Positions 30,233 to 35,480 of a DNA stretch of 36,106 nucleotides are shown one piece after another; positions within the stretch are counted from its first letter, which is position 1, and each line of letters opens with the position of its first letter. Both the position numbers and the translations under genes were made by a program. The DNA comes from Candidatus Eisenbacteria bacterium (lineage in GTDB: Bacteria; Orphanbacterota; Orphanbacteria; Orphanbacterales; Orphanbacteraceae). The stretch is from positions 1-36,106 of the forward strand of contig JAFGGD010000057.1 of the NCBI GenBank assembly GCA_016930695.1. The letters are read 5' to 3'. The notes beneath the pieces were generated by a model. It worked only from the letters and a program-made list of their open reading frames with translations, did no database searches and was not told the origin of the DNA.

Positions 30233-30288
30233 ACTTCCGGCGCCCGGGGGCGCGCGCCATTTCCGCGAGATTGAGGGATGAAAGAGAA

Positions 30289-30324
30289 ACGCCCCCGGCC
30301 GATCGACCGGGGGCGTCTTCGTTC
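30289..30324. terminator. bidirectional terminator between nadE and the first secreted-protein gene
   Basis: ACGCCCCCGG (30289-30298) and CCGGGGGCGT (30307-30316) form a perfect 10-bp stem with an 8-nt loop. Toward plus it is followed by TCTTCGTT; toward minus by TTCTCTTTC. It therefore can end nadE (plus) and the secreted-protein gene at 30343-31368 (minus), which converge here. Confidence 0.8.
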
Positions 30325-30342: not shown

Positions 30343-31368
30343 CTAGCGCCATTTCTTCTTCACTTTCCCCCAGGTGCTCTTCTGCGTGGCGGTGCCGGCG
30401 CAGGTGATGTCACCGGTCAGGGAGTAGTGACCGTAGCCGCTACCGTAAGCGTCGACGATCACATAGTAGGTGCCCGGAGCCAGCGTGGCGATGATCTGTT
30501 CCACGCCGCTCACCGTCGCGTCCGCGCCGACGACGCAGCTGTTGATCGGATCGGCGCAATCGGTCACGATGTAGAGGGAGTTGTCGAAGCTGCAGCTGTA
30601 GGTGAGATCCACGTCCGCGCCGCTCGGCAGCACCATCTTGTAGACCACGTCGTTGCCGAGTGCTTGATATCCGGTGCAACTGGTGCCGTACTCGCCGGGC
30701 GAGTAGTCGTCGGCGGCCAGCTCGGTGCTGCCGCTGACGTTCACCGGCCCGCAGGGGAGAACGATGGCGCCGTCGCAGGTGTCGTTCTCCGGCGGCGGCG
30801 GCGGCGTGTAGCCCCCGTTGATCGCCACGGCGTCCAGGTGATGGTCCGCGCCGTCGTCCCCGACGTAGCGGAAGCCGATCTCCACGGTCTGGCCGATGTA
30901 GGAGGAGAGGTCGATGTCGATCACGCCCCACTCGAAGTCGCCGCCGGTCCAATCGTTGTAGAAAGACCAGGCCATCACGCCGTTCACCCATACCTGGAAG
31001 TCGGCGTTCATCGTCCAGTAGGGGCTTCCCATGGTGGCGAAGACGAGGTGGTTCTCACCGGAGGCGATCGCGTAGCTGAACTTCAGCCACTCGTCCTGGG
31101 GAGTTCCCGCCTGCCACCCGATGTATGCGCCGTAAAGCCCCTCATAAGGATAGGAATCCTGCCCCCAGGTATAGGAGGCGTTGGTGATCGTCGTCGTCCA
31201 GCCGACCGGCGGGAAGGTGTTCTCGAACCCCTCGAAGTAGTCCCGCGTGTACGACACCATGTGATGCGGCGTCGGGTACAGTCTGTGTTTGGGGTGCTCC
31301 ACTTTTTCCGCCCAGGCGGTTCCGGCGAGGAATACGCCGATGACGAGGAGCGCTGCCAGTTTCTTCAT
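30343..31368 (-). CDS. secreted paralogue A: anchor-J-like domain, six-Cys PPC-like domain, WGxVK C-terminal tail
   Basis: A 341-residue exported protein of unknown function. The signal peptide (1-20) ends AGTAWA. Residues about 45-186 fit the 'choice-of-anchor J'/cleaved-adhesin type of beta-sandwich: FEGFENTFPPVGW, ASYTWGQD, ATMGSPYW, then VGDDGADHHLDAVAI. A proline run (189-193) leads to a PPC-like domain (about 195-323). It has six cysteines shared with the two neighbours (198, 206, 231, 271, 278, 323), plus Cys259, which the neighbours lack. Repeated features include CDGAI, DDYSPGEYG, TDCADP, VVGAD and PGTYYVIVDAYG. It ends TWGKVKKKWR, a tail shared by all three. The ribosome site is AGAAGGAGAC upstream of the ATG. 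It is the most divergent of the three. Adhesion or carbohydrate binding is plausible but unproven. Confidence 0.85.
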   Translation of the reverse strand: MKKLAALLVIGVFLAGTAWAEKVEHPKHRLYPTPHHMVSYTRDYFEGFENTFPPVGWTTTITNASYTWGQDSYPYEGLYGAYIGWQAGTPQDEWLKFSYAIASGENHLVFATMGSPYWTMNADFQVWVNGVMAWSFYNDWTGGDFEWGVIDIDLSSYIGQTVEIGFRYVGDDGADHHLDAVAINGGYTPPPPPENDTCDGAIVLPCGPVNVSGSTELAADDYSPGEYGTSCTGYQALGNDVVYKMVLPSGADVDLTYSCSFDNSLYIVTDCADPINSCVVGADATVSGVEQIIATLAPGTYYVIVDAYGSGYGHYSLTGDITCAGTATQKSTWGKVKKKWR

Positions 31369-31663
31369 TCCCGTCTCCTTCTCACCATTTTGGATGATAG
31401 GGGGTTGCGTCTAGACCGGGTTTGCCGGCCTGTCGGGTGTTCTCCGGCCTCGTCTCCTCGAGGACCCCTTCATCGGCGTGAAGGCACGCCGCGCTTCCCA
31501 GGCACGAAGGGGCGACTCGGGCGGAGGAACGGCCACTGGCTATGTATCGGACGACGGAGCGGGAAGTTGAGGGCGGATGGCGAGAATTTCGGCGGTGGGG
31601 GGCGGTGGGGGTTGGACGGGTTCGGCGAAGATTTCACCCCGCCGCCCGTTGGTGGGGCGAATC
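31369..31663. other. non-coding gap between paralogues A and B
   Basis: About 295 bp without a supported gene. On the minus strand it holds the leader of paralogue A: a GCCGGCC block at 31424-31430, about 55 bp upstream of its start, and a weak -10-like TATCAT (complement of 31395-31400). I could not pair the latter with a good -35. Plus-strand ORFs running through here are the antisense of paralogues A and B. Confidence 0.5.
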
Positions 31664-31700
31664 GGGTAAAAGAAAACCCCCCGGTCCGGAGACCGGGGGG
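31664..31700 (-). terminator. rho-independent terminator of secreted paralogue B
   Basis: CCCCCCGGTC (31677-31686) and GACCGGGGGG (31691-31700) form a perfect 10-bp stem with a CGGA loop. On the minus strand it is followed by TTTTCTTTTACCC, a strong T-tract. The 24-nt hairpin differs at only two positions from the one after paralogue C (33034-33057), consistent with duplication of gene plus terminator. Confidence 0.9.
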
Positions 31701-31739
31701 CGAATCGATTCTTCCTCGTGGAGCCTTCTCCGGCGATCC

Positions 31740-32786
31740 CTAGCGGTACATCTTCTTCACCGCGCCCCAGGAAGTCTCCTCCGTGTTCACCGTGCAGTCG
31801 ATGAGCCCGGTCAGCGTGAATGTTCCGCTACCGCTGTAACCGTCCAGAATCAGATAATAGGTCCCGGCGTCGAGGGTGGTGGAGATCGTCTCGGTGTCGC
31901 CGGAAAAGGTGGCGTCGGCGCCGATGACGCAGGTCCCCTCCGGGTCGGCGCAGTCGGTCACGATGTAGAAGGATCCGTCGTTGGCCGCGGTGTAGTAAAG
32001 GTCCACCACCGTCGCCGCGCCGAGCGTGATGGAGTAAACCACGTCGTTGCCGCTGGCGGAGTACCCGGTGCAGCTGTTGCCGTACTCACCCGGCGAGTAA
32101 TCGTCGTTCGCCAGCTCCGTGCTCCCGCTGACGTTCACGTTGCCGCAGGGAAGGGGAATGGCGCCGTCGCACAAGTCGTTCTCCGGCACTTCGGGAGGAG
32201 TCACACCCCCGCCGATGCAGACGTAATCGAGATGGTGGTCCGCGCCGTCGTCACCGGCGTAGCGGAAGGTGATATCCACCGTCTGGCCGTTGTAGGCGGA
32301 CAGATCGATATCGTACTCCTCCCATACGAAGGTGCCGCCCTGGTTCTCCAAGGAGTAGTCGAACATCTCCGCGCCGTTCACCTCGACGGTGAGGTTGGCG
32401 TTCGACGACCAGTAGGGGCTCCCCATAGTGTAGAAGGTGAGGTGATCCTCGCCGGCGGCCGAATTGATCAGGTGCGAGAAGGAGAGCGTCTCGTCCTGCG
32501 GGTTCCCCACCTGCCAACCCACTTTCGCCGCATAGGATCCCTCGTAGGAGGAGGCGTCCTTAAACCATGTGTACGAGGGATTGGTTGTCCCCAGCGTCCA
32601 GCCGGCGGGCGGGAAGGCGCCTTCGAAACCCTCGCAGCTCTCCCGCAACTGCACGTCGTGTTGCGGCGTCTGGTAATCACAGTACCGGGGATGGTCCGGC
32701 TTGTTCACCGTGATGTTGCTTGCGGCCGCGCCGCCGGCCACCACGAGGAACAGGCCGAGGACGATAATCGTTACTGCTCGTTTCAT
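31740..32786 (-). CDS. secreted paralogue B: anchor-J-like domain, six-Cys PPC-like domain, WGxVK C-terminal tail
   Basis: A 348-residue exported protein, paralogous to its neighbours. The signal peptide is about 1-22 (hydrophobic core TIIVLGLFLVVAGGAAA). The anchor-J-like domain (about 50-192) carries CEGFEGAFPPAGW, SYTWFKD, YTMGSPYW, WEEYDIDLSAYNGQT and AGDDGADHHLD. The PPC-like domain (about 200-330) has the six shared cysteines (CDGAI, PCG, SCTGY, DCADP, TCVIGAD, DC). Extra cysteines in the N-terminal part (RYCDYQ, ESCEGF, VCIGGG) could form a further disulfide. It ends SWGAVKKMYR. The ribosome site GAGGAGAAG precedes the ATG. It is closer to paralogue C than to A; their 3' halves are near-identical at nucleotide level in places (for example near 31800 and 33153). 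Function unknown. Confidence 0.85.
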   Translation of the reverse strand: MKRAVTIIVLGLFLVVAGGAAASNITVNKPDHPRYCDYQTPQHDVQLRESCEGFEGAFPPAGWTLGTTNPSYTWFKDASSYEGSYAAKVGWQVGNPQDETLSFSHLINSAAGEDHLTFYTMGSPYWSSNANLTVEVNGAEMFDYSLENQGGTFVWEEYDIDLSAYNGQTVDITFRYAGDDGADHHLDYVCIGGGVTPPEVPENDLCDGAIPLPCGNVNVSGSTELANDDYSPGEYGNSCTGYSASGNDVVYSITLGAATVVDLYYTAANDGSFYIVTDCADPEGTCVIGADATFSGDTETISTTLDAGTYYLILDGYSGSGTFTLTGLIDCTVNTEETSWGAVKKMYR

Positions 32787-32830
32787 GCTCTTCTCCTCTT
32801 TTCACCGTTGCCGGTGTTGGGGGGTTCGAT

Positions 32831-32847
32831 CCGGCCGGTGCGGCCGG
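32831..32847 (-). other. leader hairpin upstream of secreted paralogue B
   Basis: CCGGCCG-GTG-CGGCCGG is a perfect 7-bp stem with a 3-nt loop, 45-61 bp upstream of the paralogue B start, within a 244-bp gap. No clear promoter is recognised in the gap. A related GGCCGG-rich run precedes paralogue C (34190-34209) and a shorter GCCGGCC precedes paralogue A. Confidence 0.4.
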
Positions 32848-33023
32848 TTCCCATCTCCTTTCGACCGGTCCGATCGGCGGCGGGATGTTTCACCCGATGT
32901 GCCGGGAGGACCGGCGGAGCGGGAAACTTACGCTCGGATTATCGGAAGAGGGGGGCCGATTGTTTAGCCGGGGAGGAGATGGGTGAGGATCGGTCGTTGA
33001 AGGGGGGGAAAGGGGGCCGCGCG

Positions 33024-33060
33024 GGAAGAAAAGCCCCCCGGTCCGAGGACCGGGGGGCTT
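33024..33060 (-). terminator. rho-independent terminator of secreted paralogue C
   Basis: AAGCCCCCCGGTC (33031-33043) and GACCGGGGGGCTT (33048-33060) form a perfect 13-bp stem with a CGAG loop. On the minus strand it continues into TTCTTCC. The core is almost the same as the paralogue B terminator. Confidence 0.9.
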
Positions 33061-33092
33061 TCGTCGAACGGACGGTTCTCTGGGCGGAAGAC

Positions 33093-34124
33093 CTACCGGA
33101 AGAGGGTCTTCACGGAGCCCCAGGAGGCATCCTCGGTGCCGCTGGTGCAGTCGATGAGCCCGGTCAGCGTGAACGTGCCGCTGCCGCTGTAGCTGTCCGC
33201 GATCAGATAGTAGGTGCCGGGGTCGAGTGTCGTGACGATCGTCTCGGTCTCGCCGGTAAAGGTGGCGTCGGCGCCGATAACGCAGGTGTTCACCGGGTCG
33301 GCGCAGTCCGTCACGATGTAGAAGGAGCCGTCGGCGGTGCTGGTGTAGTCGAACTGCACGTCCGTCGCCGCGGTCAGGGTGAAGACGTAGGTCACGTCGT
33401 TTCCGGCCGCGGAGTAGCCGGTGCAGCTGGTGCCGTACTCGCCCGGCGAGTAATCGTTGGTGGCGTACTGGGTGTCGCCGGAGAGATCGACCGCGCCGCA
33501 CGGCATGACGATGGCGCCGGCGCAGGTGTTGTTCACCGGCGGATCCGGAATCACGATGCCCCCACAGATGCTCACCGCGTCGAAGTGGTGATCCGCGCCG
33601 TCATCGCCCGCGTACTTGAAGGTGATGTCGATGGTCTGGCCGTCATAGGCGGACAGATCGATGTCGTACTGCTCCCACACGAAATCGCCGCCCTGGTTGT
33701 CCAGGTAGTAGTCGAACACCACCACGCCGCCCACGTCGACCGTGAAGTCGGCGTACGCCGACCAGTAGGGACTTCCCATGGTCGCGAAGGTGAGGTGATC
33801 CTCGTCGGCGGCGGAGTCGATCGTGTACGTGAAGGCGAGCCGCTCGTCCTGGGGCTCTCCGGACTGCCAGCCGACCCAAGCCGCGTAGGTGCCCTCGTAA
33901 GATGACGTGGCGTCCTGCATCCAGGTGTAGGTCGCGTTGGTGATTCCCTGGCCCCAGCCGGCGGGCGGGAAGGTGCCTTCGAAGCCCTCGAAGTAGGCGC
34001 GGGCGCCGACGCTCGCGTTGAAGGGCGTCGGGGACGGATTGAACTTGGGATGATCCACCTTCTCGGCGTAGGCGGCGGTAACCGCGAAGGCGGCCACGAC
34101 CAGAAGCACGATCAGTTTACGCAT
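33093..34124 (-). CDS. secreted paralogue C: anchor-J-like domain, six-Cys PPC-like domain, WGxVK C-terminal tail
   Basis: A 343-residue exported protein. The start (complement of 34122-34124) follows GGAGGAAAG and places the signal peptide (MRKLIVLLVVAAFAVTAAYA) at the N-terminus. A longer frame to 34265 adds 47 residues with no signal. The mature start EKVDHPKF echoes EKVEHPKH of paralogue A. The anchor-J-like domain has YFEGFEGTFPPAGW, ATYTWMQD, ATMGSPYW, WEQYDIDLSAYDGQT and AGDDGADHHFDAVSI. The PPC-like domain has the six conserved cysteines, DDYSPGEYG-type (NDYSPGEYG) and TCVIGAD. The last residues are SWGSVKTLFR. It has its own terminator. It is probably the upstream member of the array, though each gene appears separately terminated. 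Function unknown. Confidence 0.85.
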   Translation of the reverse strand: MRKLIVLLVVAAFAVTAAYAEKVDHPKFNPSPTPFNASVGARAYFEGFEGTFPPAGWGQGITNATYTWMQDATSSYEGTYAAWVGWQSGEPQDERLAFTYTIDSAADEDHLTFATMGSPYWSAYADFTVDVGGVVVFDYYLDNQGGDFVWEQYDIDLSAYDGQTIDITFKYAGDDGADHHFDAVSICGGIVIPDPPVNNTCAGAIVMPCGAVDLSGDTQYATNDYSPGEYGTSCTGYSAAGNDVTYVFTLTAATDVQFDYTSTADGSFYIVTDCADPVNTCVIGADATFTGETETIVTTLDPGTYYLIADSYSGSGTFTLTGLIDCTSGTEDASWGSVKTLFR

Positions 34125-34691: not shown

Positions 34692-35480
34692 GTGCCGGTG
34701 GAGAAGATCGCGGGAAAAGTGACCGTCGTCATGCCCGCCTTCAACGCGGAGGCGACTCTGGAGCGCACTTTCCGGGACATCCCGGAAGGGGTGGTGGACG
34801 AGATCATCCTGACCGACGACGGCAGCGCGGACAGGACCGCCGAGATCGCCGGGCGACTCGGCATGGTCGTCCTCCGGCACCAAGAGAACCGGGGGTACGG
34901 GGCGAATCAAAAAACCTGCTACGATGCGGCGCTCGCCCGCGGCGCTACCGTGGTTGTGATGATCCACCCCGACTACCAATACGATCCCCGCGTGATCCCC
35001 TTCGCCGTCGGCTTTCTCGATACGGGCATCTGCGACGTGGTGATCGGCTCCCGCATCCGCACCCGACGGGAAACGCTGGACTCGGGGATGCCGGCCTGGA
35101 AATACGTCAGTAACCGCGCTCTTACTTTTATTGAAAACTTATTATTGGGACAGAACTTAGGAGATTTTCACTCCGGCTTTCGCGTCTTCCGCCGGGAGGT
35201 CCTCGAGACGATCGACTACCGCGGGAATTCGGACGATTTCGTCTTCGACACCCAGGTCCTCGCCCAGGCGGTCTTTTTCGGATTTCGTATCGGCGACGTG
35301 CCGATCCCTTCCCGCTACTTCCCGGAAGCCTCTTCGATCGGGTTCCGGCGGAGCGTGACCTACGGGCTTCAGACACTCGGCGTGATGGGGAGTTTCCTTC
35401 TGCATCGCGCCGGTTGGATCCGATCGCCTCTTTTCCGGCGGGCCGTCGCCGCGGGCGCCTCTTCACCTATCTCCTCTTAG
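34692..35480 (+). CDS. family 2 glycosyltransferase, polyprenyl-phosphate sugar transferase-like
   Basis: A 262-residue GT-A fold enzyme, probably transferring a sugar from a nucleotide donor to a lipid phosphate or glycan at the inner membrane face. Conserved blocks: [15 protein letters not shown] (donor entry), [26 protein letters not shown], and [11 protein letters not shown] in place of the usual DADLQ-type metal motif. IGSRI and [15 protein letters not shown] follow, then an [16 protein letters not shown] segment. A hydrophobic C-terminus contains no clear transmembrane pair. The start is GTG 34692 after GGAG (34681-34684). An AT-rich patch (35117-35170) with three TTA leucine codons interrupts the otherwise GC-rich reading frame. 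No other cell-envelope sugar genes are adjacent. Confidence 0.85.

Follow-up and report, generated by a model that had tools for sequence, protein, structure and literature searches.

The window (the whole 36,106-nt stretch of DNA analysed) carries three adjacent minus-strand genes, A (30343..31368), B (31740..32786), and C (33093..34124), encoding predicted exported proteins of 341, 348, and 343 aa, respectively. As the initial annotation had it, all three have the same order of parts, namely a signal peptide, a choice-of-anchor J-type domain, a PPC-like domain with six cysteines in common, and a common C-terminal tail. Their pairwise protein identity of 59–65% is well beyond chance and bears out the description of the genes as diverged tandem copies. 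Signal peptides were assigned from the sequence and a simple signal-peptide rule to approximately residues 1–20 of A (31309..31368), 1–23 of B (32718..32786), and 1–20 of C (34065..34124). The proteins end in ...STWGKVKKKWR (A), ...TSWGAVKKMYR (B), and ...ASWGSVKTLFR (C), and a pattern match together with a conservation profile delimits a candidate C-terminal tag formed by the last 15 aa, stop codon excluded (30346..30390, 31743..31787, and 33096..33140; these features, and those given below, are all on the minus strand).

Each gene has its own intrinsic terminator, again as first described: a strong hairpin followed by a T-run is located 3' of A at 30287..30318 (−30.3 kcal/mol, z=−4.8), of B at 31676..31701 (−26.7 kcal/mol, z=−3.9), and of C at 33030..33061 (−34.3 kcal/mol, z=−4.9), with 90% identity over 29 nt between those of B and C. 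The N-terminal region up to the FEGFE motif is indeed the most variable, as A, B, and C agree there in 22% of alignment columns, compared to 52–56% in the domains. The claim of long, near-identical nucleotide stretches and a recent duplication of B and C did not survive comparison of the two genes: they share 72.6% of nucleotides overall and 65% at third codon positions (dS ~0.60), and no exact match between them is longer than 29 nt. The related suggestion that the family expands by duplication of gene plus terminator is left with partial support, as the local cluster fits it and other tail-bearing families also occur in tandem, but the duplications are not recent and a genome search found only three full-length members, A, B, and C.

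The first domain was identified with the NCBIfam choice-of-anchor J model (NF038128, cut-off 30) at 30826..31239 in A (residues 44–181, 31.7 bits) and 32238..32633 in B (residues 52–183, 35.5 bits); the equivalent region of C, at 33573..33995 (residues 44–184), scores 20.8 bits, below the cut-off, but C as a whole protein is 65% identical to B. The six-cysteine domain lies at 30397..30786 in A, 31791..32183 in B, and 33144..33536 in C, the copy in B being placed by its common cysteines and alignment with A and C. Only A gives a match to the Pfam PPC model (PF04151), with 15.2 bits against a gathering score of 25.9, whereas B and C give none. Matches to known families are above the cut-off for the J domain of A and B, but not for that of C or for the PPC-like domain. 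Pfam Cleaved_Adhesin (PF07675) had no match in this genome, although the control was likewise silent.

Structure prediction was similarly of use for one part of the protein. The full-length AlphaFold model of A has a mean pLDDT of 54, and its fold matches were left unused for this reason. The model of the six-cysteine domain of C (mean pLDDT 64), to be read cautiously, resembles collagenase PPC/collagen-binding domains, which have the best target-normalised TM scores among the matches listed (0.76 for 5sv5, 0.77 for 1nqj, and 0.73 for 1nqd; rmsd 3–4.4), while the matches with lower E-values include other beta-sandwich domains. A sequence profile of the domain makes weak contact with the same three collagenase chains. 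The profile matches therefore place the J domain in a known, curated family, and the second domain, judging by the predicted model, looks like one known by fold, differing from PF04151 in its sub-cut-off score and its six conserved cysteines. The layout initially called novel is accordingly built of one known element and one that looks known; the combination of J, PPC-like domain, and tail itself was seen in A, B, and C alone among the seven genomes searched.

The same genome has another tandem pair of genes and a weaker candidate that share just the PPC part and the tail with A, B, and C, and relatives have likewise kept genes for PPC plus tail, but not the combination of J and PPC. It is plausible that the three proteins are putative surface or matrix binding modules, or a surface adhesin family. 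The flanking genes of the window (1–30232 and 34692–35480) encode an H+-pyrophosphatase, an amidase_3 lipoprotein, SMC, a PAS/response regulator protein, a CitMHS transporter, a sulfatase, NAD synthase, and a family 2 glycosyltransferase; none of the C-termini read among them bears the tail.

The tail follows the consensus A-T-E-x-[TSA]-[ST]-W-[GST]-x-[VIL]-K-x-[LM]-[FWY]-R, with SWGxVKxLFR as the last ten residues, and is situated at the C-terminus or up to ~4 residues from it. We searched for it at the DNA level with the pattern WGx[VIL]Kxx[FYW and some others]R-stop, using the reversed pattern as a control. There are 30 such places in the 3.78-Mb genome to which the window belongs, 11–38 per genome (199 in total) in seven genomes of its phylum, and 13–35 per genome (181 in total) in eight other genomes, several of them named Ca. 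Eisenbacteria or Krumholzibacteri(ot)a, with no match to the reversed control in any of these sets. When the residue after W was left free, which added SWS and SWT forms, the seven genomes yielded 262 matches against one in the control. Some relatives prefer SWS/SWT over SWG (71 broad versus 32 WG matches in genome G002), and none of these forms was listed for the genome of the window.

A strict pattern applied to 84,980 species retrieved only 12 stretches, from Candidatus Eisenbacteria, Krumholzibacteriota/Krumholzibacteriia MAGs, two other bins, and a further one that is labelled Fibrobacter sp.; the pattern was based on GC-rich codons, and the tail would escape it in AT-rich lineages. The eight other genomes counted above are those from which these 12 stretches come. 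The same strict pattern gave no match in 2.9 million viral contigs, which served as a negative control. The genome behind the bin labelled Fibrobacter sp. IMS_BF (DYDD01000014.1) has 30 tail matches and SprA; it may be mislabelled, or the tail may extend to Fibrobacterota. Neither Pfam nor NCBIfam has a model that matches ten isolated tails, even at E-values up to 10, and among open-licence papers we found none on the motif, nor on sorting signals or type IX secretion (T9SS) in Eisenbacteria or Krumholzibacteriota.

For a closer view of the carriers, 78 non-redundant tail ORFs were collected from sampled stretches of the genomes with the tail. A signal peptide was recognised in 75/78 of them, compared to 159/853 other ORFs of ≥200 aa, by a home-made rule that is crude and against a background that includes spurious ORFs. 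The carriers are small (median 226 aa), and single linkage sorts their bodies, with signal peptide and tail removed, into 34 unrelated families. These include beta-helices, LTD, X25, DUF642, ice-binding-like adhesive, NTF2-like, and PPC domains, as well as members of the NCBIfam families choice_anch_A, choice_anch_C, choice_anch_J, and DVUA0089; proteins with a lipobox, and thus already membrane-anchored, also bear the tail. A transmembrane (TM) helix is absent: 2/78 ORFs have a KD19 window that reaches 1.6 within their last 60 residues. Structure models predict the tail to be disordered. The idea of a special amphipathic helix was discarded, as its hydrophobic moment of 0.54 is equalled by 13.5% of shuffled sequences.

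Conservation was assessed at positions −14, −13, −10, −3, and −2, which the search pattern leaves free or constrains only loosely. Pairs of proteins with unrelated bodies agree at these positions in 61% of cases, compared to 7% at positions −29 to −20, and pairs within a family whose bodies have diverged to less than 40% identity (mean 29%) are identical there in 76%. The unrelated bodies, the contrast in conservation, and the near-terminal position lead us to regard the tail as a C-terminal element under selection on unrelated exported proteins, and its reading as a genuine tag is well supported by these sequence comparisons. This also revises the initial annotation, in which the tail was a feature of the three paralogues: it is common to A, B, and C, but occurs genome-wide on unrelated exported proteins too. 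That the tail would have no function of its own and reflect the common descent of an ordinary paralogous family holds for A, B, and C among themselves; as a general explanation it is scarcely credible, given the 34 body families that share the tail and the mere 7% agreement immediately upstream.

The position of the tail is not absolute. A variant in which LFR is followed by a codon other than stop occurs in only 17 places in the seven genomes, and in 8/10 such loci that were fetched, the frame stops within 1–4 residues, while another is a fused duplicate. L112, where a string resembling the tail stands at residue 96 in a frame of 344 codons, is probably a chance match. In neighbouring genes of two genomes (G005 contig C13 and G006 contig C84; loci L109, L110, and L114) the tail is followed by a short extension (FRKVL, FRRVFR, or FRDLF), so the final Arg need not be the last residue. 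Five fused-duplicate NTF2-like/DUF4440 lipoproteins from three genera (L019 and L020 in the genome of the window, two genes at L079, and L111) have an internal tail, SW[GT]A[VI]Kx[LV]F[RH], at the junction of the two halves, and it is kept even where the halves share 37–39% identity. Since these proteins retain an internal copy, the tail need not be strictly terminal; the retention supports a function, with or without cleavage. Tandem pairs or quartets of diverged tail paralogues were seen at L024, L083, L078, L074, L088, L031, and L013/L014, among them four tandem genes at L078 and a related pair at L024 (genome of the window) and L083 (G005). The A/B/C array is one case of this habit among tail families.

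All genomes with the tail, 7/7 of the phylum and 8/8 others, encode SprA (SprA_N), which is found in 0/14 control genomes; this co-occurrence is not independent evidence of a link, as T9SS may be universal in these lineages. The seven phylum genomes have 100–148 matches each to the T9SS sorting-domain model TIGR04183, and 0/7 have an exosortase EpsH (PF09721). The NCBIfam matches of 47 tail proteins include neither TIGR04183 nor other T9SS sorting domains. In genomes G003 and G004, however, homologues of the PPC domain occur in proteins of 879–915 aa that end in a T9SS type-A/FlgD-like C-terminal domain (CTD; TIGR04183 22.1 and 23.3 bits, cut-off 23), whereas in G000, G002, and another gene of G003 the homologous PPC domain is followed by the tail. 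As its PPC relatives end there in a type-A domain, the tail occupies the position of a sorting signal. Choice-of-anchor families owe their name to the fact that the sorting signal at the end of their members varies from species to species.

Similar tags are known from other bacteria. In PEP-CTERM, GlyGly-CTERM, and MYXO-CTERM systems, many unrelated exported proteins per genome have only a C-terminal homology region in common (PMC3237569, PMC11980579), and for other systems there is a report of functional internal sorting tags (PMC11980579). The tail resembles the signals read by exosortase, rhombosortase, and myxosortase in being a short C-terminus common to many unrelated signal-peptide proteins, and in its internal occurrence in fused proteins. 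Unlike those signals, which are tripartite (motif, TM helix, and basic cluster), it has no TM helix, and for PEP-CTERM there is the further difference that exosortase is missing from the seven genomes; the absence of the defining helix places the tail outside this group. With the T9SS CTDs of types A, B, and C (TIGR04183, TIGR04131, NF033708) it shares the C-terminal position, the lack of a TM segment, Sec export, the unrelated bodies, and the same genomes, and homologous domains bear either one or the other. It differs in that those CTDs are Ig-like and ~70–80 residues long, while the tail has ~10–15 conserved residues ending in [LM][FWY]R and matches none of their models. The tail would thus belong to the general kind of C-terminal sorting signals, as a variant not described before, or form a new class if it has its own machinery; it has the look of an address label used in protein sorting.

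Taken at the level of sequence, then, the tail is shared above chance, conserved, free of a TM helix, and located where sorting domains are found. We infer its reader and the delivery that follows Sec export, and consider it likely that A, B, and C belong to a large exported set with a short C-terminal sorting signal, for which the T9SS translocon or an accessory factor is the likeliest reader. Tail proteins would be exported via Sec, and a putative receptor dedicated to the tail, either periplasmic or in the outer membrane, would then recognise it and bring the protein to the surface or exterior of the cell; cleavage may accompany this step. Reading after Sec export is suggested by the signal peptides of the carriers and by a tag too short and too polar for a stop-transfer anchor, and since lipobox proteins with the tail are already anchored, a role in routing (to the cell surface, for instance) is more probable than one in anchoring. 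The receptor may be the T9SS translocon itself, or a T9SS accessory factor accepting a minimal signal on small cargo in place of the ~70–80-residue Ig-like CTD; A, B, and C would then be paralogous cargoes that have diverged, each with a J and a PPC domain. The case for T9SS as the exit route is circumstantial, and T9SS is favoured because it is present in every genome with the tail and because homologous domains carry either signal.

A sorting signal for dedicated machinery unrelated to T9SS would agree with a tail that has no resemblance to T9SS CTDs, leaves TIGR04183 unmatched in all 47 proteins, and falls far short of the length of an Ig-like fold, and also with the size of its carriers (median 226 aa, compared to mostly several hundred residues or more in the listed T9SS-tailed frames). 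We nevertheless regard it as somewhat unlikely: homologous domains swap CTD and tail, every genome with the tail has SprA, and these two facts make one shared exit the simpler reading. A little less doubtful, and tentatively entertained here, is that the tail defines a new TM-less class of sorting signals with its own recognition and processing machinery, shared by several candidate phyla and operating beside T9SS.

Retention at a docking site, either a dockerin-like scaffold or a lipid/LPS surface, would make the tail a binding peptide and not a transport signal. Its aromatic, hydrophobic, and basic residues (W, V, L, and F with K and R), its predicted disorder in models, as a docking peptide would show, and the internal copies kept in fused duplicates are all consistent with this. 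However, the amphipathicity of the consensus is unexceptional (reached by 13.5% of shuffles), lipoproteins with an anchor of their own bear the tail too, and no scaffold was identified, which makes docking quite improbable in our judgement. The extreme C-terminal position, the conserved aromatic residue, and the terminal Arg could also suggest a quality-control or degradation tag for a periplasmic PDZ-type protease or chaperone. Encoded and strongly conserved tags on dozens of structural and binding proteins are unlikely degrons, though, and the placement of the tail agrees with that in choice-of-anchor families, so we give this explanation very little credence. Our preferred reading therefore remains that of a short sorting signal, most likely read by T9SS or a factor associated with it.

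From C-terminal sorting tags one can read which proteins are placed on the surface of a bacterium, and here a code of ten residues labels dozens of proteins per genome, mostly of unknown function, in lineages without a cultured model. A genuine tag would allow the surface proteome of these lineages to be predicted, tell small tail-bearing cargo apart from large cargo with T9SS CTDs, and provide a search key for a receptor or sortase. If it is T9SS that reads the tail, the signal would be much smaller than a folded CTD and would help to define what the T9SS translocon recognises.
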